A stretch of DNA of 64,000 bases from Nocardiopsis ansamitocini (GTDB lineage Bacteria > Actinomycetota > Actinomycetes > Streptosporangiales > Streptosporangiaceae). Position 1 is the stretch's first letter; each line of letters opens with the position of its first letter. Location: the NCBI RefSeq assembly GCF_030268225.1, contig NZ_BSQG01000013.1:1-64000 (forward strand), read 5' to 3'. The notes under the pieces are model-generated. The model was given only the letters and a program-made list of their open reading frames with translations. It was not told where the DNA came from and made no database searches. Shown piece after piece: positions 46,747 to 64,000 of this stretch. The position numbers and the translations under genes are program-made.

Positions 46747-48087
<1,341 letters not shown>

Positions 48088-48088
48088 T

Positions 48089-48124
48089 CATTTGTTTGGC
48101 CTATTGAACTAGGCCGAACAAATG
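48089..48124. promoter_or_regulatory. Long inverted repeat, operator of the dgdA region
   Basis: CATTTGTTTGGCCTA at 48089-48103 and TAGGCCGAACAAATG at 48110-48124 are inverted copies with one mismatch and a 6-base centre. A related half-site, GTTTGGGCCTA, follows at about 48138. The site lies 35 bases upstream of dgdA and 105 bases before the GntR gene, where it would control both. Confidence 0.8.
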
Positions 48125-48229
48125 GGGGTCAAGACCGTTTGGGCCTAGCAAAATATCGGGCCACGAGCGCGGACACGGGGATAGCTACAATAGGTCGATC
48201 GCGTTCGGCGGAGGGGGAAGTGGGAACCG

Positions 48230-49180
48230 GTGGACAACATACAGCTGGTCCGTCACTCCGACGTGCCCGTCTACCGCCAGATCGTCACCCAGCTGTCGTT
48301 CATGATCGAGGCGGGCGATCTGACTGCGGGGCAGGCGCTTCCCAGTGCCCGGCTGCTGGCCGACAACCTGCACATCAATCGCAACACCGTGGCCCGCGCC
48401 TACCTGGAGCTGAGCAAGATTGGCCTAGTCGAAGGCCGTGGGCGCAGTGGGACGATCGTGGTGGGCCCCGACCCCGCGCGGGAGGGCTCGCCGGCCCGCG
48501 ACCGGGCCCGAACGGTCTTGGAGGCGGCAACCAGGGAATGCATCGACCTCGGCCTGTCCGTCGCCGAGATCCAGACGCTCGTGACGAGCCTCGCCCTGCG
48601 CGCCGAGGAGGACCTCCTCAAGGTCTCCTTCGTCGAGTGCAACGCCGACCGGGCATGGTACTTCGCGAGCGAACTCGAAGAACACATCGGCCTCGCGGTG
48701 AAACCGCTCGTGCTCGGGGAGTTCGAACCAGAAGGCGAACAGGCCGATCTCGTCCTGACCACGTTCTTCCACCTGGCCGAGGTCCGCGGGCTATGGCGCC
48801 GCACGGACACCGACGTCGTCGCGATCGTCGTCGCACCCCACGTGCAGACGCTGGTCCGGATCGCCTCGGTCGCCAAGGATCGAACGGTCGGCATCTGGTA
48901 CTCCACCGACGAACAGGCCCTCAGCATCCAGGACTCGCTGGTGCAGTCGGGGATCACCAACATCACGGTCCTCCACGGCACCGGTGACGAGGACATCGAA
49001 GGCACCGACCTCGTCGTGATCCCCAGCGAGATGCCCCAGCTGAAGTCCCGCCTCGACGGACGGGTCGACGTCATCGAGTTCGGCAACGTGCTGGACACCG
49101 CGTCGATCCGCATGGTGGCCGAGGTCGTCGGCGACATGCAGGCCGCCAAGCGCAGCGGCGCGTACGGCTCGCTCGCGTGA
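48230..49180 (+). CDS. GntR-family regulator with an uncommon ligand domain
   Basis: A 316-residue regulator. The GntR HTH is at residues 8-75 (VPVYRQIVTQLSFMIEAGDL, LLADNLHINRNTVARAYLEL). The remaining ~230 residues match neither the FCD, UTRA nor MocR aminotransferase domains; they read like a periplasmic-binding-like alpha/beta fold (DLVLTTFFHLAEVRGLW, VGIWYSTDEQALSIQDSLVQ). It starts at GTG 48230 and is divergent from dgdA across a long inverted repeat. A role as dialkylglycine-responsive regulator is inferred. Confidence 0.87.
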   Translation: MDNIQLVRHSDVPVYRQIVTQLSFMIEAGDLTAGQALPSARLLADNLHINRNTVARAYLELSKIGLVEGRGRSGTIVVGPDPAREGSPARDRARTVLEAATRECIDLGLSVAEIQTLVTSLALRAEEDLLKVSFVECNADRAWYFASELEEHIGLAVKPLVLGEFEPEGEQADLVLTTFFHLAEVRGLWRRTDTDVVAIVVAPHVQTLVRIASVAKDRTVGIWYSTDEQALSIQDSLVQSGITNITVLHGTGDEDIEGTDLVVIPSEMPQLKSRLDGRVDVIEFGNVLDTASIRMVAEVVGDMQAAKRSGAYGSLA

Positions 49181-49445
49181 CGCGGCGGACCTGACGGCCG
49201 CGTGCCCGACCGCCCCTGGTCCCGCGGGGTCCCCGCCGTCGTCGAGCGACGGTCCGCGCGGTGGAGCCGGAGGGTCCGTTTGCACGGGGGAACGGCTGGA
49301 CCGTGTCCCGAATCCGCAGGCGGCACACGGTAGGGCGGCCGACCCCTCCTGTCCTGAGGCCCGCCCCGCCGGGAGAACCCGCCCCCGACCGGGTACACGG
49401 AGGATGAGGGTGAGTGCTGCCGCGAGCGGAGAAGAGGGAACCGCC

Positions 49446-50321
49446 ATGACCATTGTCGTCACCACCCCCACCGGGCACGTCGGTTCGCGCGTCGTCCAAC
49501 TGCTCGTACAGGCCGGTGTCCGGCCGCGGGTGCTCGTGCGGGACCCCGCGCGGCTGGCCGCCGATGTGCGGGACCGGGTCGACGTGCACCGGGGGGACCT
49601 CACCGACGCCGCCTTCGTCCGTGCCGCCGTCGCGGGCGCGCGTTCGGTCTTCTGGGTGGACCCCACCCCGCACACCGCCGCCGACCCCGTCGGGACCTCG
49701 CAGCGCACCGCGTCCGCCGTCGCGGAAGCCGCCCGGGACGGCGACGTCGCACGACTCGTCCTGTTGAGCAGCGTGGGGGCCGAGAAACGGAACGGAGCCG
49801 GCCACATCGACGGCCTTGCCAGGATCGAGGAGCAGTTCGACGCCACCGGCGCAGCCGTGCTCCACCTGCGCTGCGGCTACTTCTTCACGAACCTGCTGCT
49901 CGACCTCGACGGACTGCGGGCGGGCGTGGTGACCTCCGCGGCCGATCCCGCCCGGCCCCGGCCGTGGGTGGCCCCGCGCGACATCGGGGACGTCGTCGCG
50001 GCCCGGCTCCTGAACGACACCTGGGGCGGACGCGTGGTGCAGGCCGTGCACGGCCCCGAGGACCTCAGCGACGTCCGGGTCGCCGACATCCTCGGCGACG
50101 CCCTCGGCCGACCGATCCGGACCGAGACCGTCACCGACGACGACGTCCGCGACTCGCTGCGCTCGGTGGGCCTGCCGCCCGGCGCGGTGGAGGGAATCGT
50201 CGGGATGACCGCCGGAACACGCGGTCTCGTCCCCGAACAGCCCCGCGACGCCACCACCACGACCCCCACCACGCTGGCGGGCTGGGCATACGACACCCTG
50301 CGTCCGTTGCTCGCCGGATGA
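49446..50321 (+). CDS. NAD(P)H-binding NmrA-like protein
   Basis: A 291-residue atypical SDR. The cofactor loop is TIVVTTPTGHVGSRVVQLLV at the N-terminus, followed by PRVLVRDPARL, GARSVFWVDPTPHT and VLLSSVGAEKRNGAGHIDG. The sequence lacks the classic YxxxK pair, as in NmrA/quinone-sensing relatives. ATG 49446 follows GAGGGA. It stands between the GntR gene and a convergent small gene. Function is unknown; a redox sensor or quinone reductase are the usual options. Confidence 0.82.
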   Translation: MTIVVTTPTGHVGSRVVQLLVQAGVRPRVLVRDPARLAADVRDRVDVHRGDLTDAAFVRAAVAGARSVFWVDPTPHTAADPVGTSQRTASAVAEAARDGDVARLVLLSSVGAEKRNGAGHIDGLARIEEQFDATGAAVLHLRCGYFFTNLLLDLDGLRAGVVTSAADPARPRPWVAPRDIGDVVAARLLNDTWGGRVVQAVHGPEDLSDVRVADILGDALGRPIRTETVTDDDVRDSLRSVGLPPGAVEGIVGMTAGTRGLVPEQPRDATTTTPTTLAGWAYDTLRPLLAG

Positions 50322-50352
50322 CCGGGGCAGCCCCCGTCGCCCCGAGCCGCCC

Positions 50353-50754
50353 CTAGAACGGTCCGGGGGCGTCCACCTTGATACCGCGGGCCTCCAAGGC
50401 GGCGCGGTCGGCCTCGGACAGCGGGGCGACCGACCACACCTCCGTGAGGTTGGGGAGCTTGACCGACTCCCCGTAGCCGGTGACGTCGAAGGAGTCGTCC
50501 TCACCGTCCCAATACGGGGTGATCACCTGGTAGACCTCGTTTCCGCCATCGAAGTTTAACGTCTCCACGTTCGCCACCTGCTCGGACGTGAGCCGCAGTG
50601 CGGTGAAGTAGGCCACCGCCTCGGGAAGCGGGACGCAGGCGTAGATGTTTTCCGGGTCGGGAAACGTCGGGAACTCCAGGAGCCCCTTGTGCATCAGCTC
50701 CTCGACCACGAGCAGTTTGAAGTTGAGCTCCTCGAACTCCACGAACTCCGCCAC
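50353..50754 (-). CDS. DUF6892-like small protein
   Basis: A 133-residue acidic protein of unknown function. It begins FVEFEELNFKLLVVEELMHK, continues VPLPEAVAYFTALRLTSEQV and VETLNFDGGNEVYQVITPYW, and ends with LSEADRAALEARGI. The FDGGNEVYQVI-P-W-G pattern is what I associate with DUF6892. The GTG at 50754 is chosen for the ribosome binding site before it. Context gives no clue. Confidence 0.65.
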   Translation of the reverse strand: MAEFVEFEELNFKLLVVEELMHKGLLEFPTFPDPENIYACVPLPEAVAYFTALRLTSEQVANVETLNFDGGNEVYQVITPYWDGEDDSFDVTGYGESVKLPNLTEVWSVAPLSEADRAALEARGIKVDAPGPF

Positions 50755-50835
50755 AGGTTCCCGCCCTTCAGTACACGCCGTGACCGGCGCGGATCGTCAG
50801 TGGCCCCACTGTAGGGACGGGTGGGGACAGACCGG

Positions 50836-51981
50836 TCACCACTCGGCGAAGGAGCCGTCGTCGTGGCGCCACACCGGGCCGCGCCAGTCGGGGGCCGAGC
50901 CGTCGGCCGCGCGTACTCGCGCCTCGTCCACCTCGATGCCCAGGCCCGGCGCGGTGGGCCGGTCGATGTGGCCGTCGCGGAACGCGAACACCTCGGGGTC
51001 GGCCAGGTAGTCCAGGACCTCGGCCCCCTTGTTGTAGTGGATGCCGATGCTCTGTTCCTGGATGAGGAAGTTGGGGGTGGCGAAGGCGACCTGGAGACTG
51101 GCCGCCAGGGAGACCGGTCCCAGGGGGCAGTGCGGGGCGAGCTGGACGTCGTAGACCTCGGCCAGGGACGCGATGCGGCGCACCTCGGAGATGCCGCCGG
51201 CGTGGGAGAGGTCGGGCTGGGCCACGGCGATCCCGGCTTGGAGCGCGGGGAGGAAGTCGGCGCGGGAGAACAGCCGCTCGCCGGTGGCGACGGGCACCGT
51301 GGTCGAACGCGTCACCTCGCCCAGCAGGTGGGTGTGCTCGGGCAGCACCGGCTCCTCCACGAACAGCGGACGCAGCGGCGCCAGGTGCGGGATGGCCTGG
51401 CGGGCGTTGGCCGTGGTGAAGCGGCCGTGGAAGTCCACCGCGAAGTCGCGGTCGTCGCCGAGCGCCGCGCGCGCCGCCGCGGCGCGCCGCACCATCAGGT
51501 CGATGTCGCGGACGGTGGCCAGCCGGTTCATCCGCCCGGAGGCGTTCATCTTCACCGCGGTGAAACCGGCCTCGACCTGCGCGGCGACCGACTCTCCGAC
51601 GTCACCGGGCTCGTCGCCGCCCACCCAGCTGTAGGCGCGCACCCTGTCGCGGACGGGCCCGCCCAGCATGACGTGCACGGGCACGCCCAGATGCTTGCCC
51701 GCGATGTCCCACAGCGCTTGGTCCAGGCCGGCGACCGCGCTGGAGAGCACGGGCCCGCCCCGGTAGAACGACGCCTTCGTCATCAACTGCCAGTGGTCCT
51801 CCACCCGCAGCGGGTCGCGGCCGACGAGCAGTTCGGCGAGTTCGTGCACGGCGGTGCGCACGGTCGCCGCGCGTCCCTCCACGACGGGCTCGCCCCAGCC
51901 CACGACCCCGTCGTCGGTCTCCACCCGGCACAGCAGCCAGCGGGGTGGGACGGCGAAGGTCTCGACACGGGTGATCTTCAC
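50836..51981 (-). CDS. dgoD: D-galactonate dehydratase-like enolase-superfamily enzyme
   Basis: A 381-residue mandelate racemase/enolase-fold acid-sugar dehydratase. It would turn galactonate into 2-keto-3-deoxygalactonate. Catalytic parts are AVKMNASGRM (lysine region), FAVDFHGRFT (first metal Asp), LFVEEPVLPEH (second ligand), VATGERLFSR (third ligand) and QLAPHCPLGPVSLAA with the dehydratase histidine. YNKGAEVLDYLADPEVF is also typical. GTG 51981 follows GAGGAG. It is the last of an SDR-GntR-dehydratase operon. Its product is the substrate of dgoK at 16.8-17.9 kb, which supports the galactonate call. Confidence 0.9.
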   Translation of the reverse strand: MKITRVETFAVPPRWLLCRVETDDGVVGWGEPVVEGRAATVRTAVHELAELLVGRDPLRVEDHWQLMTKASFYRGGPVLSSAVAGLDQALWDIAGKHLGVPVHVMLGGPVRDRVRAYSWVGGDEPGDVGESVAAQVEAGFTAVKMNASGRMNRLATVRDIDLMVRRAAAARAALGDDRDFAVDFHGRFTTANARQAIPHLAPLRPLFVEEPVLPEHTHLLGEVTRSTTVPVATGERLFSRADFLPALQAGIAVAQPDLSHAGGISEVRRIASLAEVYDVQLAPHCPLGPVSLAASLQVAFATPNFLIQEQSIGIHYNKGAEVLDYLADPEVFAFRDGHIDRPTAPGLGIEVDEARVRAADGSAPDWRGPVWRHDDGSFAEW

Positions 51982-51992
51982 GCGGGCGCTCC

Positions 51993-52697
51993 TCAGAAGG
52001 GGTCAGTGGTGAGGTGTTCGGCGTCGGCCGCAGCCGAGGCCAGCAGGCTGAGCATCGCGATCTCGGCGGCGTCGGGGTTGCCCGACCGGACCGCGTCCAC
52101 GACCGCCCGGTGACTGGGGATCGGGTCGGCGTGCGGGGCCGCCGAGTGCACGAGGACGTCGCGTTCGAGCAGCCCCGGCTCCAGGGCGATGTCCATGCGT
52201 GCCAGCAGTTCGTTGCCGGAGGCGGCCAGGAGCGCCCGGTGAAAGGCCAGGTCGGCCAATGCGTGCTCCAGGGGGTCGCCGAGGGTGGCCGCCATGGCGG
52301 CCAGGGCCTCCTCCAGGACCGCGAGGTCGGCCTCCGTGCGGCGCGTCGCCGCATGGCGCACCGCCGCGGGCTCCACCACCTCGCGCAGTTCGCCGAGGTC
52401 GCGGATCAGCCGGGCGGTCGCCCCGCTGCGCATCTGCCAGCGCAGCACGTCGGCGTCCAGCAGGTTCCACGCCGAGCGCGGGCGCACGAACGTCCCGCGC
52501 TTCTGGCGGGCGTCGAGCAGTCCTTTGGCGGTCAGCACCTTGACGGCTTCGCGCAGTGCGCTCAGCCCCACGCCCAGCTCGGTGCCCAGCGCGGGCAGGT
52601 CCAGGACCGCGCCCTCGGGGGGTGTGCCGGCCAGGATGCGCCGGCCCAGCAGTTCGACGGTGCGGCCGTGGACGCCTCGGCCTCGATAGGAGGGCAT
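51993..52697 (-). CDS. FadR/GntR-family regulator with FCD domain
   Basis: A 234-residue regulator. The winged helix is at residues 10-75 (VELLGRRILAGTPPEGAVLD, ELGVGLSALREAVKVLTAKG, RQKRGTFVRPRSAWNLLDAD). The helical FCD effector domain follows (LIRDLGELREVVEPAAVRHA, ALADLAFHRALLAASGN, IPSHRAVVDAVRSGNPDAAE), with the metal-binding histidines of that fold. The WNLLDADVLRW block is typical of DgoR-like galactonate regulators. Eleven bases separate it from dgoD. Confidence 0.92.
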   Translation of the reverse strand: MPSYRGRGVHGRTVELLGRRILAGTPPEGAVLDLPALGTELGVGLSALREAVKVLTAKGLLDARQKRGTFVRPRSAWNLLDADVLRWQMRSGATARLIRDLGELREVVEPAAVRHAATRRTEADLAVLEEALAAMAATLGDPLEHALADLAFHRALLAASGNELLARMDIALEPGLLERDVLVHSAAPHADPIPSHRAVVDAVRSGNPDAAEIAMLSLLASAAADAEHLTTDPF

Positions 52698-52727
52698 GGA
52701 CTCTCGCTTCTCGTGTGGCGGGGGGCC

Positions 52728-53519
52728 TCAGGCCGAGGTCTTGTAGGAACTCCAACCGCCGTCCACCAGCAGTGACGTGCCGGTGATGTAGGAAGCGTCG
52801 GGGGAGAGCAGGAAGGCGATGGCCGAGGCGACCTCGGCGGGCTCGCCGAGGCGGCCCGCGACCGTCTGGTCGACGCTCATCGCCACGTCGGCGTCGCTGA
52901 CGCCGTCCCAGGCGCGGGTCAGGATCGGTCCGGGGAGAACGCTGTTGACCCGTACCTGCGGGCCGTACTCCACGGCCAGTTGCCGGGTCAGCCCGGTCAG
53001 TCCGGCCTTGGCCGCCGCGTAGGCGGGGCGCCCCGGGAGGCCGACGAGGGCGTGCACGGAGGAGACCGCCACGACGCTGCCCCGGTGGGCGCGCAGGTCG
53101 TCCAGGCAGGCCCGAACCCCCAGGAACGTCCCGGTCAGGCTCACACCGATCTGGGCGTCCCAGTCGGCCAGCGTCGTTTGGTGGGCGGGAGCGATGGTCA
53201 CCCGGTAGGCGTTGCTGACCAGCATCGACACCGGTCCGAAGGCGTCGTTGGCGACGGCTGCCGCCCGGTGCCAGGACTCCTCGTCGGAGACGTCGCAGTA
53301 CTGGAACAGCGCCGTGCCCCCGGCCGCGTCGATCGCCTGGGCCACCGCCCGGCCGCCCTCGGTGTCGATGTCGGTGACCAGTACCGACGCGCCATCCGCT
53401 GCCAGCCGTTGCGCGGTGGCGGCCCCGATGCCCCGGGCCGCGCCCGTGACCAGGGCGGTGCGGCCGTGAAAACGCCCGGCTGCGCCGGGCGGGGGGGCAA
53501 AGGACTGGGGGTCGGGCAT
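52728..53519 (-). CDS. SDR dehydrogenase, probable galactose/sugar dehydrogenase
   Basis: A 263-residue classical SDR: TALVTGAARGIGAATAQRLA (TGxxxGIG), VLVTDIDTEGGRAVA with the NAD-type acidic residue, AVSSVHALVGLPGRPAYAAA with the catalytic Ser and YxxxK, and a C-terminal YITGTSLLVDGGWSSY. It is the first gene of the operon with the FCD regulator and dgoD, so oxidation of galactose (or a related sugar) toward galactonate is the likely job. No lactonase was seen nearby. The enzyme assignment within SDR is inferred from context. Confidence 0.88.
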   Translation of the reverse strand: MPDPQSFAPPPGAAGRFHGRTALVTGAARGIGAATAQRLAADGASVLVTDIDTEGGRAVAQAIDAAGGTALFQYCDVSDEESWHRAAAVANDAFGPVSMLVSNAYRVTIAPAHQTTLADWDAQIGVSLTGTFLGVRACLDDLRAHRGSVVAVSSVHALVGLPGRPAYAAAKAGLTGLTRQLAVEYGPQVRVNSVLPGPILTRAWDGVSDADVAMSVDQTVAGRLGEPAEVASAIAFLLSPDASYITGTSLLVDGGWSSYKTSA

Positions 53520-54377: not shown

Positions 54378-54581
54378 ATGCGCACCATCTACCGACGTAC
54401 CCTCGCCGTCGGGGTCTCCGGACTCTTCGCCTCCGCCCTGCTGCTGGGCGCCTCCGCGCCGGCCCAGGCCGCGGCCCCGCCCGCGCAGGGCTCCGCGAGC
54501 TCCTCGGGCCTGCTGGGCGGACTGTTCGGCGGTGGCGGCCTGATCAGCATCTTCATCGGCAACTACCAGATCAACAACTGA
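54378..54581 (+). CDS. Small secreted peptide precursor (67 residues)
   Basis: A small protein with a classic signal peptide: RTIYRRTLAVGVSGLFASAL then LLGASAPAQAA, with cleavage expected after AQA. The mature ~36 residues are GSASSSGLLGGLFGGGGLIS followed by IFIGNYQINN, a glycine/serine linker plus a hydrophobic, Asn-ending tail. That tail faintly recalls the GNxxxxN strands of amyloid surface proteins such as chaplins, but the cysteines and spacing do not match, so I do not assign it. GGAAGG precedes the ATG. A strong hairpin follows at once, so it is a separate transcript upstream of the NRPS gene. Confidence 0.75.
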   Translation: MRTIYRRTLAVGVSGLFASALLLGASAPAQAAAPPAQGSASSSGLLGGLFGGGGLISIFIGNYQINN

Positions 54582-54603
54582 CCTTCGCCGCGTTGCCGGC
54601 ATC

Positions 54604-54633
54604 GAGGCCGCACCCCCATCGGGGTGCGGCCTC
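54604..54633 (+). terminator. Strong terminator after the secreted peptide gene
   Basis: GAGGCCGCACCCC at 54604-54616 pairs perfectly over 13 bases with GGGGTGCGGCCTC at 54621-54633, with a 4-base loop. It starts 22 bases after the stop codon. No long T run follows, as is common in high-GC genomes. Confidence 0.85.
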
Positions 54634-55067
54634 GCGCTTTGCGCGCGGGACCTTACCAAACGTCACTGAGCGGGATGCACGGCAAAAAATTTGTTTTCTG
54701 CCCGTTTCGTCGGGATGAAACGCCAGTTCGGTGGTCCTGTCCATCGGCCGGACAGCCGCAGCCGCAGGGGTTTTCGCTCCCGGGCCGCCTTGCTCGCCGT
54801 AATCGGGGAATGGCGTCCAGTCACCTCAAGTGACCTTGCTCACCCAAACTTCTTTCCCATTGGCCGCGAACCACCACCGATTGGAGTTTTCGGAGTGAAA
54901 GGAGGCCAAGGCGCACATGTCCTCGCGTGCCTCGCCGCCACAGCAGCGGATCGCGCCGCCACCGCGACCCGACTGACCCCCGCCCCGGGCCACACCGTTC
55001 CCGGCCCCCGACGCACTGGCCTGCGCCGGCTCCCCCCAAGAGCCCCGGCGCGATTGGAAGGTAAGCG
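54634..55067 (+). promoter_or_regulatory. NRPS upstream region with a possible coupled ORF
   Basis: About 430 bases that should hold the NRPS promoter. An AT-rich patch (AAAAAATTTGTTTTC near 54682-54696) is followed by an imperfect inverted repeat GTTTCGTC / GATGAAAC at 54704-54721, a possible operator. A 58-codon frame from GTG 54895 ends in a TGA that overlaps the NRPS ATG (ATGA). It is low-complexity and may be only a leader or chance. Confidence 0.35.
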
Positions 55068-58000
55068 ATGACGAACGCCTCCGGATCCCCCCGTCTGCCC
55101 CTCACCGCCGCCCAGACCGGACTCTGGTACGCCCAGCAGCTCGACCCGGCCAACCCGGTCTACGCGATCGCCGAGTACATCGAGATCGAGGGTCCGCTGG
55201 ACGTCGCCACCTTCCGCGCCGCGGTGCGCAGGGCCGTCCTGGAGACCGACGCCATCCACCTGCGCTTCGGGGAGGAGGACGGCCGGCCCTGGCAGCAGGT
55301 CGACCGCCCCGACGACTGGCAGCTCACCGTCGTCGACCTCACCGGCGAGACCGACCCCGCGGAGGCGGCCCGTGCCTGGATGCGCGACGACCTCGCCCAG
55401 CCTCTGGACGTGCACGGCGGCGCCCTGTTCGCCGAGGTGCTGTTCAGCCTGGGCCCCGAGCACTACTTCGTGTACCAGCGCGTCCACCACCTGCTGCTGG
55501 ACGGCTACGGCGCCGTGCTGGTCCTGGGCCGCATCACCGAGATCTACGACGCGCTCGTCGCCGGCACCGACCCCGGCCCCGCGCCGTTCGGCTCGTTCAC
55601 CGACCTCCTCGACGCGGACGCCGCCTACCCGGGCAGCCCGCAGCACGCCGACGACCTGGAGTTCTGGCGTGAGCGCACCGCCGGGACCGAAGAACCCGTC
55701 GGACTGGCCGGAACCCCGGCGCGCATGCCCCGCACGCTCCTGCGCGCCACCGCCCACCTGTCCCGTGCCGAGGCCAAGGCCGTCCTGGCCACGGCCCGCG
55801 CCCACCAGACCGGTATGCCGGCGGCGATCCTGACGGCGACCGCCGTCTACCTGCACCGCCTCACCGGTGCCCGCGACATCACCCTGGGCCTGCCGGTGAC
55901 CGCACGCAAGGGCGGCCACGCCCGCTCGGTCCCCGCGATGCTCTCCAACATCGTTCCCCTGCGCGTGCGGGTACGCCCCGACGCCCCCGTCGGTGAACTC
56001 CTGCGCGAGGTCGCCGCCGAGACCCGTGCGGTCCTGCGCCATCAGCGGTTCCGCTACGAGGACCTGCTGCGCGCCGAGGGTGCCGCCGGGCGCCGGCTCA
56101 CCGGCCCCTCGGTCAACATGCTGCCCGTCGCCGGGACGATGACCTTCGCCGGCCTCCCCGCCACCGCGCACAACCTCGCCATCGGCCCCGTGGACGACCT
56201 GTCCGTCATCGTGCACGGCGTCACCGCCGAGCGCGACATCCGCGTGGACTTCGACGCCAACCCCGACCTCTACGCCGCCGAGGACCTGGCCGACCACCAG
56301 CGCCGCTTCCTCGACCTGCTCGGCGCCTTCGCCGCCGCCCCCGAGACCCCCGTGGGAGCCCTGGCGCTGCTGGCCGAGCCCGAGCGCACCGCCCTGTTGG
56401 AGTCGGGGCGCGCCCCCGAGCGCGAGCGCCCCGCCCACACGGTCGTCGCCGAGTTCCAGCAGCGCGCCCGGCAGACCCCCGGGGCCACCGCCCTGGTCGC
56501 CCCCGACACCCGCCTCACCTTCGCCGAACTGGACGCCCGGTCCAACCAGCTGGCCCGCCACCTGCTCGCCCGGGGCGCACGCCCGGGAACGATCGTGGCC
56601 GTGCGCCTGCCACGCTGTGCGGACCTGGCCGTCGCCCTGCTCGCGGTGCTCAAGTCCGGTGCGGCCTACCTTCCGCTGGACCCCGGCTACCCCGCCGACC
56701 GGTTGGCCGCGATGACCGCCGACGCCCGCCCCGTCCTGACCCTGGCCCACACCGGGACCGCCGCGCACGACGCACCCGGCACCGTCGTGCTGGACGACGC
56801 CGACACCCGGGCCGCGCTCAAGGCCCTGGCCGACACCACCATCGGCGCGGGCGAGCGCCCCCGTCCCATCACCCCGGCCGACCTCGCCTACGTCATCTAC
56901 ACCTCCGGGTCCACCGGGCGCCCCAAGGGCGTGGCCGTGGAGCACGGTTCGCTGCTCAACCTGTTCCACTCCCACCGCGAGCAGGTGTTCGGTCCGGCCC
57001 GCGAGCGCGCCGGGCGCCCGCTGCGCGTGGCCCACACCGCGGGGCTGTCCTTCGACGCCTCCTGGGACCCCATCCTGTGGCTGGCCGAGGGCAACGAACT
57101 GCACCTGGTCCCCGACGAGGTCCGCCGCGACCCCCAGGCGCTGATGGCCCACCTGCATGCCGCGCGGATCGACGCCATCGAGACCACCCCCTCCTTCGCC
57201 CGCGCCCTGCTGGGCGAGGGACTGGCCACCCCGGGCGGCCCCACCGTCGTCGCCCTGGGCGGGGAAGCGGTGGACGCCGACCTGTGGCGTGCCCTCGCCG
57301 CGCTGGACCACGTCCGCGCCTACAACTTCTACGGCCCCACCGAGACCACCGTGGACAGCCTGATCGCCCCCATCACCGCCGACACCGAGCCCGACATCGG
57401 CCGCCCCGTGCCCAACACCCGCGCCTACGTCCTCGACAGCGGTCTGCACGCGGTCCCCGACGGCGCACCCGGCGAGCTCTACCTCTCCGGAGCCAACCTG
57501 GCCCGCGGCTACCTCGACCGCCCCGCCCTGACCGGCGAGCGGTTCGTCGCCGACCCCTTCGCCGCCGACGGCGCGCGCATGTACCGCACCGGCGACGTCG
57601 TACGCCGCCGCCCCGACGCCACGCTGCAGTTCCTGGGCCGCGCCGACGACCAGGTCAAGATCCGCGGCTTCCGCGTCGAGCCCGGCGAGATTGAGGCGGT
57701 CCTGCTGTCCCACCCCGACGTGGAACAGTCCGCGGTGGTGGTGCGCACCGACGCCGGGGACCCCCGCCTGGTCGGCTACGTCACCGGCACGGCCGACCCG
57801 GTCGAACTGCGCGAGCACACCGCCCGGATGCTGCCCGGCCACATGGTCCCCGCTCAGATCATGGCGCTGGACACGCTCCCGCTGACCCCCAACGGCAAAC
57901 TCGACCGTGCCGCGCTGCCCCGCCCCGACGTCACCGGTACCGCGGGGGCCCGGGAACCCGGCACCCCCGAGGAGACCCTGCTGCGCGACCTCTTCGCCGA

Positions 58001-61000
58001 CACCCTCGGCCTGGACGAGGTCGGCGTGGACGACGACTTCTTCGCCCTGGGCGGCCACTCCCTGTTGGCCACCCGGCTCATCGGGCGCATCCGCGACGCC
58101 CTGGGCACCGCACCGCCCATCCGCGACCTGTTCGAGCACCCCACCGTGGCCGGGCTGGCCACACGCCTGTTGGCCGGGGGGACCGACCGGCCGGTGCTCG
58201 CCCCCCGCGAGCGCCCCGAACGGATCCCGCTGTCCTACGCCCAGCGCCGCCTGTGGTTCCTCAACCGCTACGACCCCGCCTCGCCCGCCTACAACATCCC
58301 GGCCGCACTGCGCCTGCGCGGAGACCTCGACCCCGCGGCACTGCGCGGAGCCGTCGCCGACCTGGTTGACCGGCACGAGTCCCTGCGCACGGTCTTCCCC
58401 TGGACCGAGGAGGAACCGCGCCAGAACGTGCTGGCCGCCACCGATGCCGGACTGGACTACGCGGCCGTCTCCTGCACCGAGGCCGACCTCGCCCGCCTGC
58501 TGCGCGCGGAGTCCGCGCGCGGTTTCGACACCTCCGCAGAGCTGCCGCTGCGGGTCCGGCTGTTTCGCCTGGACTCCGGCGAGCACGTGCTGCTGCTGGT
58601 CCTGCACCACATCGCCGGCGACGGCTGGTCCCTGGCCCCGTTGGCCCGCGACCTGGCCGCCGCCTACTCCGCCCGCGTCACAGGAGGAGCACCCGCGCTC
58701 GCGCCGCTGCCGGTGCAGTACGCCGACTACACGCTGTGGCAGCGCGAGGCCCTGGGCGACGAGGACGACCCCGACAGCGACATCGCCCGCCAGCTCGCCT
58801 TCTGGCGCCGCACCCTGGCGGGGACGCCCGAGGAACTGGCCCTGCCCACCGACCGTCCCCGTCCCGCCGAGCCCAGCGGCCGCGGCGGCGCGGTTCCCGT
58901 GGAACTGCCCGCACGCCTGCACCGCGACCTGGCCGCCCTGGCCCGTTCGCGCGGCGCCAGCCTCTTCATGGTCCTACAGGCGGGGCTGGCCGCGCTGCTC
59001 ACCCGCCTCGGCGCGGGAGAGGACCTGCCCATCGGCACCCCCGTCGCCGGGCGCACCGACCCCGCGCTGGACGATCTCGTCGGCTTCTTCGTCAACACTC
59101 TCGTCCTGCGCACGGACACATCCGGTAACCCGACCATGGGGCAGCTCGTGGACCGGGTGCGCGCCACCGACCTGGCCGCCTACGCCCACCAGGACGCCCC
59201 CTTCGAGCGCGTCGTCGAAGAGGTGCGCCCCGCGCGCTCCGCGGCCCGCCACCCGCTGTTCCAGACCATGCTCACCCTGCAGAACACCCCCGAGGCCCGG
59301 CTGGAGATGCCCGGTCTGCACGTCGGGACCGAACCGGGCGCCGACTCCGGCGCGGCCAAGTTCGACCTCTCGCTGAGCCTGGCCGAGCGCTTCGCCGAGG
59401 ACGGAACCCCCGCCGGGGTGGCCGGCACCCTGGAGTACAGCGGCGACCTCTTCGACGCCTCCAGCGTCCGGGTGATCGCCGATCGCCTGGTCCGCGTCTT
59501 CCAGGCCCTGGCCGCCGACCCCGACACCCCCCTGTCCGAGACCGACATCCTGGCCCCCGGCGAACTGCGCGCCCTGGAGGCGGGCGCCCGAGGGCCCGTC
59601 CGCGCGGTGCCCGACACAACGATCGTCGGGCTCTTCACCGACCAGGCCCGCCGGACCCCCGGAGCGACCGCCGTGGTCGCGGGGAACCAGCGGCTCACCT
59701 TCGCCGACCTCGACGCCCGCTCCGACCGGTTGGCCCGCGTCCTCGCCGGACACGGCACCGGTACCGGCGACGTCGTGGCCGTCCTCCTGCCGCGCTCGGC
59801 CGACACGGTCGTGGCGCTGCTGGGCGTGCTCAAGAGCGGCGCCGCCTACCTGCCGGTGGACCTCTCCTACCCCAGTGAGCGCATCGCCCACATGCTCGCC
59901 GACTCCCGGCCCGCCCAGGTCGTCACCGGCGCGGCGGCCACGGTCGACATCGCCGTGGACGCCCCCGTGCTGCGCCTGGACGACCTTCCGCTGACCGTGC
60001 CCCGGTGCCCGGCGCCGGTCGGCCCCGCCGCCCACGACCTGGCCTACGTCGTCTACACCTCCGGGTCCACCGGGCGCCCCAAGGGCGTGGCCGTGGAGCA
60101 CCGGGCCCTGGCCAACCTGTTCTACTCCCACCGCGAGCAGGTGTTCGGTCCGGCCCGCGAGCGCGCCGGACGTCCGCTGCGCATGGCCCACACCGCCGGT
60201 GTCTCCTTCGACGCCGCCTGGGACCCCATCCTGTGGCTGGTGGACGGCCACGAACTGCACGTGATCGACGACGAGACCCGCGGCGACGCCGAGCGCCTCA
60301 CCGCCCATCTGCACGCGGTCGGCGCCGACGCCATCGAGACCACCCCCGCCTACGCCCGCCAGCTCGCGGCACTGGGACTGTTCGCCGACGGCGTCGGGCC
60401 GAGGGTCGTCGCCCTGGGCGGCGAGGCCGTGGACCCGGCCCTGTGGCGCACCCTGCGCGAGGTCCCCGGGCTCACCGCGCACAATTTCTACGGCCCCACC
60501 GAGGCCACCGTGGACAGCGTCACCGCCTCCGGCGACGACGAGCCCGAGCCCGTCATCGGCCGCCCCGTGGCCAACGTCGGGGCCCGGGTGCTGGACGCCC
60601 GACTGCGCCCGGTCCCGGCCGGCGTGGTGGGGGAGCTCTACCTGACCGGCGCGGGCCTGGCCCGCGGCTACCTAGGGCGTCCGGCCCTGACCGCGGAGCG
60701 TTTCATCGCCGACCCCGTCGCCGCCGACGGCACCCGCATGTACCGCACCGGCGACCTCGTCAGCCGCCGCCCCGACGGGGCCCTGCGCTTCGTGGGCCGC
60801 GTCGACGACCAGGTCAAGATCCGTGGTTTCAGGATCGAGCCCGGCGAGATCGAGGCGGTGCTCGCCGAGCACCCCGACGTCGCCCAGGCCGCCGCGGTGG
60901 TCGGCACCTCCAAGGCCGGCGACCCGCGCCTGGTCGCCTACGCCACCGCCCGGCCCGGCACCCGCCTGGACACCGCGGACGTGCGCGCCCGCGCCGCCGA

Positions 61001-64000
61001 GCGGCTGCCCGACTACATGGTGCCGGTGGCCGTGGTGGAACTCGCCGAACTGCCGCTGACCCCCAACGGCAAGCTCGACCGCGCGGCCCTGCCCGAGCCC
61101 GAGCCGGGCCCCGGCCAGGGCCGCCCGCCCCGCGGCGGTGACGAGTCGCTGTTGTGCGGCCTGTTCGCCGAGGTCCTCGGGGTGCCCACCGTGGGCGCCG
61201 ACGACGACTTCTTCGCCCTGGGCGGCCACTCGCTGCTGGCGGTACGCCTCATCGCCCGGGTCCGAGCGGTCATGGGGGTCGAACTGGAGATCCGCACCCT
61301 CTTCCAACAGCCCACCGCCGCCCGCCTGGCAGCCGCCCTCGACAGCGGGCAGCGCGCCCAGCCGCCGCTGCGCCCGATGCCCCGCCCCGAGCGGCTTCCG
61401 CTGTCGCCGGCACAACAGCGCCTGTGGTTCCTCAACCGCATGGACGACACGGCCGCCGACTACAACATCGCGATGGCCGTGCGCCTGACCGGCGAGCTGG
61501 ACACCCGGGCACTGCGCCTGGCCCTTGGCGACGTCACCGCCCGCCACGAGAGCCTGCGCACGGTCTTCCCCGACCTCGACGGCGTCGCCCACCAGCACGT
61601 CCTCGCCCCCGAGGAGGCCGCTCCGCCGCTGCTGATGTCGTTCCCCGGCTCCGAGGAGGCCCTGCGCGCGGAGATGGCGCGCGTCGCCGGCACCGGCTTC
61701 GACCTGGTGCACCAGACGCCGCTGCGCGCCCACCTGTTCCGCCTCCGCCCCGACGAGCACGTGCTGCTGCTGGTCCTGCACCACATCGCCGGCGACGGCT
61801 GGTCCACCGCGCCCCTTGCCCGCGACCTGTCCACCGCCTACACCGCGCGGGTGCACGGCACCGCGGCGCTGTGCTCCGACCTGACCGTGCAGTACGCCGA
61901 CTACGCCCTGTGGCAGCGATCGGTCCTGGGCGAGGAGAGCGACCCGGCCAGTCCGGTCAGCCGCAGCCTCGACGCCTGGCAGCAGCGCCTGGCCGGCGCA
62001 CCCGAGGAACTGCGCCTGCCCGCGGACCGCCCCCGCCCGGCCTCCTCGGCGCAACCGGCCGCCACCGTCGCGGTACGCATCGACGCCGCCCTGCACCGCC
62101 GACTGCTGGACCTGGCCCGCGGCTCCTCGGCCAGCCTGTTCATGGTCCTGCAGACCGGTCTCGCCGCGCTCTACACCCGCCTGGGAGCCGGAGAGGACAT
62201 CGTGCTGGGCAGTCCCGTCGCTGGGCGCACCGACCCCGCGCTGGACGACCTCGTCGGGTTCTTCGTCAACACCCTGGCGTTGCGCACCGACACCTCCGGC
62301 AACCCCGGCTTCGCCGAACTGCTGGAGCGGGTGCGCGCCGGCGACCTCGACGCCTTCGACGACCAGGACGTGCCCTTCGAACGGGTCGTGGAGCGGCTGC
62401 GGCCGTCGCGTTCGCTGGGCCGCCACCCGCTGTTCCAGACCATGCTGACCCTACAGAACACCGAGACCCCCACCCTGGAGTTGCCCGGCCTGGACGTCCG
62501 GCCCGAACCGGAGGTCAGCGGGGGAGCGGCCAAGTTCGACCTGTCCTTCAGCCTCGCCGAGAGCGAGGACCACCTCGGTGCGGCCGACGGCATCCTGGGC
62601 ACCCTGGAGTTCAGCACCGCCATGTTCGACGCCGCCACCGCCACCACCATCGCTGAGCGCTACGTGCGGCTGCTGGAGGCCGCCGCGGCCAACCCGCGCA
62701 CCCCGATCGGACGCCTCGACATCCTGACCCGCGCCGAGCGCACCGGGCTCCTGGAGAAGGGGCGCGGCCCCGAACGCGTGGCGCCCGCCGCCACCGTCGT
62801 CGACCTCTTCGAGTACCAGGCCCAGGCCGCCCCCCGTGCCGTTGCGGTGGTCGCCGGCGGCGAGCGCCTGGACTTCGGCACGATCAACGCCCGGGCCAAC
62901 CTCCTGGCCCGCACCCTCGTCGAGCAGGGAACCGGCCCCGGAGACGTCGTGGGGGTCCTGCTGCCGCGCTCGGCCGCAACGGTCGTGGCGCTGCTGGGCG
63001 TGCTCAAGTCCGGCGCGGCCTACCTGCCCCTGGACCCCGATTCGCCCGACGAGCGCCTCGCGGGGATGCTCGACGACGCCGGCCCGGCCCAGGTGATCAC
63101 CGTTCCCGAGCTGCGGGAACGCTTCGCGGCACGCCACCCCGCCCTGTTCCTGGGCGACACCGCCCCGGGCGGACCGTCCCGGCCGGGGGCCGGGGCCGAC
63201 CTGTCCGACACCGAGCGCGTCCGCCCCTTGAGCGGCACCGACACCGCCTATGTCATCTACACCTCGGGTTCGACCGGGCGCCCCAAGGGGGTGGAGGTCG
63301 AGCACGCCGCACTGGTGAACCTCTTCGCCAGCCACCGGGCCGAACTGTTCGCGCCCACCCGTGAACGGCTCGGCCGGCGTCCCAGGGTCGCCCACACCGC
63401 GGGCGTCGCCTTCGACGCCTCCTGGGACCCGATGCTGTGGCTGGTGGACGGGCACGAACTGCACGTCATCGGCGACGACGTGCGCCGGGACTCCGCCGGC
63501 CTCGTCCGTTACCTCGCCCACGAGGGAATCGACGCCATCGAGACCACCCCCAGCCACATCCGCCGACTCCTCGCCGAAGGTCTGCTCGACGGCGACCGGG
63601 GCCCCGGAGTGGTCGCCCTGGGCGGCGAGGCGGTGGACGCCGACCTGTGGCGCACGCTCACCGAGCACGCCGGGGTGCGCGCCTACAACTTCTACGGGCC
63701 CACCGAGACCACCGTGGACAGCCTGGTCGCCCCCATCGAGGTCGGGCAGGCCCCCACCATCGGGCGCCCCGTCGGCAACAGCCGGGCCTACGTGCTCGAC
63801 GGCGGTCTGCACCCCGCTCCCGTCGGCGCCGTCGGTGAGCTCTACATCGCCGGCGCCGGCCTGGCCCGCGGCTACCGCAGCCGTCCAGCGCTGACCGGTG
63901 AGCGGTTCGTCGCCGACCCCTTCGCACCCGCGGGGGAGCGGATGTATCGCACCGGGGACCTGGCGCGCTGGCGCGCCGACGGAACCCTGGAGTTCATGGG
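55068..64000 (+). CDS. Non-ribosomal peptide synthetase, C-A-T-C-A-T-C-A (open at window end)
   Basis: The window shows 2977 codons with no stop. C1 (residues ~8-440; HHLLLDG at 140) resembles the first domain of EntF/DhbF. A1 is ~465-960 ([11 protein letters not shown] near 608), T1 has the carrier serine in [11 protein letters not shown] near 998. C2 (HHIAGDG at 1180) is of the kind that joins two L-residues. A2 is ~1520-2000, T2 ([11 protein letters not shown]) near 2052, C3 (HHIAGDG at 2238), A3 from ~2580. All three A domains have the same pocket residues (D-A-D-E-V-L-F-V-D at the usual nine positions). No epimerisation domain and no MbtH gene are seen here. GGAAGG precedes ATG 55068. 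Confidence 0.95.

Follow-up and report, generated by a model that had tools for sequence, protein, structure and literature searches.

A three-module nonribosomal peptide synthetase of Nocardiopsis ansamitocini with three identical ornithine-like pockets and a paired gene for a small ribosomal peptide

The ornithine adenylation (A) domains of the gramicidin S, tyrocidine, fengycin and bacitracin synthetases carry Glu278 as side-chain acid, and A domains for oxidised ornithine tend toward Glu239 (PMC4786211; see also PMC10522769). Arginine codes cluster on Glu239 combined with Asp278, although there is overlap among the codes published for basic residues (PMC12283262). In the scabichelin siderophore pathway, module 5 reads DAWEGGLVDK and loads hydroxy-ornithine (PMC7692728). 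Synthetases of the EntF/MxcG type have a starter-type first condensation (C) domain and C-A-T modules, with a terminal thioesterase in EntF, while the cationic homopoly(amino acid) synthetases for epsilon-polylysine and the PosA product make a homo-oligomer of one basic amino acid by means of a single A domain plus tandem, membrane-bound C-like domains (PMC10522769). Here, we describe a nonribosomal peptide synthetase (NRPS) encoded in a 64,000-nt stretch of N. ansamitocini DNA (contig NZ_BSQG01000013.1, positions 1 to 64,000; hereafter, the window) that resembles each of these systems in part. It shares Glu278 with the four ornithine-incorporating synthetases; however, ornithine is one residue among several in those products, whereas all three modules of the window NRPS match the pattern. 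Its pocket code agrees with that of scabichelin module 5 in eight of ten letters (nine of ten for DAWEAGLVDK, the commonest code among its relatives), but several genomes carrying such relatives contain no convincing ornithine N-oxygenase. It resembles the EntF/MxcG type in its starter-type C1 domain and C-A-T modules, but has three modules and a different pocket, and most carrier genomes lack a 2,3-dihydroxybenzoate (DHB) ligase. Like the polylysine-type synthetases, it appears to use one basic amino acid throughout, but with three modules and a thioesterase in place of a single A-T unit followed by transmembrane tandem domains.

The NRPS gene starts at position 55068 on the forward strand and, as the preliminary description had stated, forms a single ORF that runs off the window; on the same contig, it continues past position 64000 to a stop at 65384 and encodes a protein of 3438 aa with (C-A-T)x3-TE architecture. 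Pfam searches of the complete protein identified three copies each of the Condensation, AMP-binding and PP-binding domains plus a single Thioesterase domain at the C-terminus, such that C, A and T follow each other in module order and end in a release domain; no epimerase domain was found in the full-length protein. The C domains are located at 55095..56399 (C1), 58221..59576 (C2) and 61395..62750 (C3), as placed by PF00668, and the A domains at 56436..57932 (A1), 59619..61106 (A2) and from 62793 past the window end to about 64310 (A3), all on the forward strand; T3 and the thioesterase lie beyond the window, 3′ of A3. The motif HHxxxDG is present in all three C domains (intact as HHLLLDG in C1), LGGHSL occurs three times, and GWSFGG is also found. 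In a C-domain tree, C1 grouped with EntF and the starter C domains of other siderophore synthetases, the C1 domains forming one group, and C2 and C3 were placed among ordinary extension domains. The expectation of L-joining C domains fits C2 and C3, together with the missing epimerase; C1, however, is of the starter type. For module 1, the EntF/MxcG type was among the best NCBIfam matches, with scores below both NCBIfam cut-offs. An AlphaFold model of A1, made from a three-sequence alignment, had a pLDDT of 53, a confidence too low for it to carry weight here.

Pocket residues were read from alignments to GrsA, with 1AMU numbering set through a match between the PDB chain and GrsA residues 234-527. 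Three MAFFT modes gave D-A-W-E-A-G-F-V-D-K for A1, A2 and A3, identical at all ten positions, and both controls in the same MAFFT run, the EntF serine code DVWHFSLVDK and the GrsA code DAWTIAAICK, were recovered. The preliminary description was therefore right that the three domains share one code, which persisted under proper alignment to GrsA, and that they carry the motif NFYGPTE[TA]TVDS; its letters, D-A-D-E-V-L-F-V-D, were misread at 239, 299 and 301. In HMMER and all three MAFFT alignments, one residue is missing ahead of the W in FDA[SA]WDP, relative to GrsA FDASVWEMFMALLTG, with the W-to-G spacing unchanged; because this deletion had been overlooked, position 239 was read as D rather than W. 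Both programs also align GGEA with the GEA of EntF at 302-304, and since GGEA had been anchored one residue off, positions 299 and 301 were read as V and L rather than A and G. Only two acidic side-chain residues besides Asp235 consequently remain, Glu278 and Asp331, instead of the three (239, 278 and 331) counted previously. Glu278 aside, the GrsB ornithine code differs from the window code, which has Ala236, Trp239, Ala299 and Phe322. Pairwise identity among the three A domains is 61-64%, and 52% of their columns are invariant; the naive chance of nine identical pocket residues out of nine is about 0.003, a figure that overstates significance, as some pocket positions are conserved in A domains generally.

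Compared with the ornithine domains described in PMC4786211, A1-A3 all combine Glu278 with Gly301, and Glu278 together with Trp239 and Gly301 is an ornithine A-domain pattern. The three modules thus very probably load one and the same basic residue, for which ornithine is the most likely candidate, its exact identity being deduced from the code. A basic substrate had been proposed before, partly for a different reason; the proposal is supported, with Glu278, at the position used by ornithine domains, as the relevant acid. Literature searches with the code as first read, the corrected code and related codes returned a match only in the scabichelin/Phytohabitans paper, which contains the nearest published code, DAWEGGLVDK (PMC7692728); because this similar code loads hydroxy-ornithine, the rule that Glu278 indicates unmodified ornithine is weakened.

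A scan of species genomes yielded 78 loci. Forty-three loci, including the window, carry a trimodular NRPS, mostly of about 3400-3700 aa; they belong to Nocardiopsis, Micrococcales, Streptomyces and other taxa. Nearly all A domains of this family read DA[WMLI]E.G[LFY]VD. Glu278 was found in 126 of 127 family A domains but in only 6 of 123 other A domains of the same set, and Gly301 (127/127) and Asp331 (123/127) were similarly conserved. Three letter-identical codes are present in only two family loci; as a rule, the family keeps an acid at 278 together with Gly301 rather than strict letter identity. The near-fixation of Glu278 supports the homo-oligomer core suggested in the preliminary description, and a homo-tripeptide is, judging from these codes, a well-supported prediction. 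A literature search for orphan trimodular NRPSs in the carrier genera found no description. Arthrobacter has been listed as one of the 20 genera with the most predicted cationic NRPS clusters (PMC6095874), and we infer that the family described here may be part of the reason.

Upstream of the NRPS gene, a small gene (54378..54581, forward strand), which the preliminary description did not mention, encodes a 67-aa peptide with a signal-peptide-like N-terminus and the C-terminus FIGNYQINN, directly preceded by an RBS-like GGAAGG. A strong terminator-like hairpin, GGCCGCACCCCCATCGGGGTGCGGCC, is located between the two genes (54603..54633, forward strand; z = -5.7 for the folding of 54582-54660). 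Upstream DNA was available for 41 loci, and in 37 of them a homologous or positionally equivalent peptide ORF lies upstream of the NRPS, a descriptive count, as the motifs were chosen after inspection of some of the same loci; the genome samples described below represent the independent test. No recognised peptide was found in four of these loci (two from Amycolatopsis and one each from Sciscionella and Nocardioides). In Sciscionella (L078), another small secreted ORF (MNTLKKVGATAG...NIIWMQCK; 4680, forward strand) occupies the place of the peptide and possibly represents a third type. In Nocardiopsis and Micrococcales, the peptide is encoded on the NRPS strand and carries an IG[QN][FY]Q-like motif in its C-terminal part (IGQFQ type), while in Streptomyces it is transcribed divergently from the NRPS and contains two QGxN[FL]CLL-like repeats (QGxNxCLL type); the peptide types of different lineages share no clear homology. 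Two peptides (L062 and L063) are 33 residues long and retain the conserved core with no obvious signal peptide, and three others (L167, L168 and L169) show a LINGPL..GQFQQ core after a transmembrane-like stretch that is not a typical signal peptide. Peptide codons are under purifying selection among close relatives, with dN/dS values of 0.0-0.37 within Arthrobacter-type, Pseudoclavibacter and close Nocardiopsis pairs, and selection is weaker between the window and Nocardiopsis (0.5-0.6). Searches of Pfam and NCBIfam returned no credible match for the peptide, and literature searches for its motifs found no description. An AlphaFold model of a Streptomyces peptide had a pLDDT of 46 and was likewise too uncertain to be informative.

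Peptide and NRPS occur together in almost every sampled genome that carries either. Among 121 genomes of the window's family, the peptide and a close C1 homologue (65%) were each confined to the window genome and one Nocardiopsis genome; a peptide-like match in one other genome (G059) was due to chance. Among 247 Streptomyces genomes, searches alone detected the peptide in 11 and the NRPS in 8. Inspection revealed further NRPS C1 domains beside peptides as well as a peptide in G264, which had appeared to carry only the NRPS, resulting in 11 genomes with both, none with the NRPS alone, and one (G277) with only a frameshifted peptide. For G264 and G239, the trimodular code itself was read; for G289 and G210, the evidence consists of an adjacent C1-like domain only (41-43%). 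In the P. aurescens family (197 genomes), both genes were present in 11 genomes and neither was present alone, with the NRPS detected by search in eight peptide carriers and on inspection in the other three; the genes are adjacent in ten genomes and split over contigs in one (G413), where each is located at the end of a different contig. For the 247-genome and the 197-genome sample alike, the hypergeometric chance of this concordance is about 3e-18, ignoring shared ancestry. Only discordant genomes were inspected, which favours concordance; the values based on the searches alone are 2.5e-10 and 3.4e-12. The pairing is thus near-obligate in the 565 sampled genomes.

A second conserved partner, likewise absent from the preliminary description, is a DrrAB-type ABC transporter encoded past the window, 3′ of the NRPS (drrA, 65738-66733, followed by drrB, 66730-67530). 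Almost every locus with enough sequence 3′ of the NRPS contains the drrA/drrB pair there, with identities of 63-74% for DrrA and 62-80% for DrrB in the loci checked. Following drrB on the window's contig (C13, 67729-68967), a gene encodes a FabF-type ketosynthase that stands alone and shows apparent Cys-His-His residues; it was rejected as a component of the system, as the 5 kb that follow drrB in a Nocardiopsis relative (L163) contained no match to it and it was not recurrent in other loci.

Taken together, these data lead us to favour, with some reservation, a scheme in which a three-module NRPS makes an N-capped tri-ornithine that is exported by DrrAB and acts jointly with the paired ribosomal peptide. 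Each of the three modules would activate the same basic amino acid, most likely unmodified L-ornithine; the starter-type C1 would probably place on the first of them an acyl cap whose donor is encoded elsewhere in the genome, the residues would be joined by C2 and C3, and the terminal thioesterase would free the N-capped tri-ornithine in linear or cyclised form. The DrrAB-type transporter would then export the tripeptide, and the small ribosomal peptide (54378-54581), as part of the same system, would probably act with it outside the cell. Of this scheme, the domain architecture, the shared pocket, the conserved exporter and the near-obligate peptide pairing are observed, while ornithine as the residue, the cap, DrrAB as the route for this product and the joint action are predictions.

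The alternative readings differ from this scheme in the substrate, the function of the product, the meaning of the identical codes or the role of the peptide. Lysine or arginine could replace ornithine, with the remaining scheme the same; we regard this as rather improbable. Codes for basic residues do overlap (PMC12283262), and the first A domains of dimodular relatives read DAWD[VA]GLVD, differing from the window mainly at 278. These relatives, in which the second code is Thr-type and a DHB ligase adjoins in one case, resemble griseobactin-type clusters, and their Asp278 therefore probably indicates arginine; published arginine codes, however, form the Glu239 and Asp278 cluster, and Glu278 in the absence of Glu239 is the pattern of ornithine domains (PMC4786211). 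A siderophore had been hinted at in the preliminary description. Such an iron-chelating product would be built from three N-hydroxy-ornithines or from three basic residues each carrying 2,3-dihydroxybenzoate, and both the hydroxy-ornithine loaded by the nearest published code and the grouping of C1 with DHB-type starter domains would be consistent with it. The window's genome does contain genes for an ornithine N-oxygenase and a DHB-AMP ligase, but these are located in a separate NRPS cluster on a different contig (G000:C5:259000-281000), which probably makes a mixed catecholate/hydroxamate siderophore of its own. Among carriers of the trimodular family, Lys/Orn N-oxygenase gave weak or no matches in 7 of 18 genomes (best E 1e-8 or worse), and DHB-AMP ligase, expected in producers with catecholate synthetases such as EntF and DhbF, was without a match in 15 of 19 at E 1e-100; these counts are approximate because no completeness is given for the carrier genomes. 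The best candidates for a DmdR/IdeR iron box within 1 kb upstream of 41 NRPS loci had 7-10 mismatches out of 19, no better than shuffles, and twelve family loci searched whole gave 7-8, as compared to 1-3 in five Arg/Thr-type siderophore-like loci, also searched whole. The transporter that recurs beside family loci is the DrrAB exporter, and siderophore uptake genes do not recur there. Because a convincing N-oxygenase and a DHB ligase match are lacking in many carriers and no iron box was found upstream, a siderophore is unlikely as the product.

That the identical codes merely reflect recent duplication of one module and carry no functional meaning appears very improbable. The A domains are similar to one another, as noted above, and A-domain positions are mixed in the tree for some lineages; however, window A1, A2 and A3 each group with the same-position domain of Nocardiopsis species and are not each other's closest relatives, and Glu278, Gly301 and Asp331 are nearly fixed across the family. 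The peptide gene could also be a functionally separate neighbour that encodes, for example, a pheromone or secreted structural peptide and is kept near the NRPS for regulation only. The strong hairpin separating the two genes in the window and the divergent transcription in Streptomyces are consistent with such independence, but near-perfect co-occurrence in 565 genomes and in distant lineages argues against it, and we consider it doubtful. Beyond the joint action assumed in our preferred scheme lies the stricter and tentative possibility of a two-component system, in which tri-ornithine and a dedicated ribosomal secreted peptide function only jointly and are kept across Actinobacteria with lineage-specific peptide types, for example as a complex, as a two-part antimicrobial or signal, or covalently (e.g., via the invariant Gln residues of the peptide). 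If true, a compact synthetase for one cationic tripeptide, present in many actinobacterial genera and nearly always paired with a ribosomal peptide, would be a cluster type for which we found no description. It would make the joint action of a nonribosomal and a ribosomal peptide accessible to testing on a small scale, and would yield a homo-ornithine product outside siderophores.

The region further upstream (46747-53519) encodes an aminotransferase, GntR regulators, an NAD(P)-dependent epimerase-like protein, an SDR and a galactonate dehydratase; this gene set resembles sugar-acid metabolism and looks unrelated to the NRPS locus.
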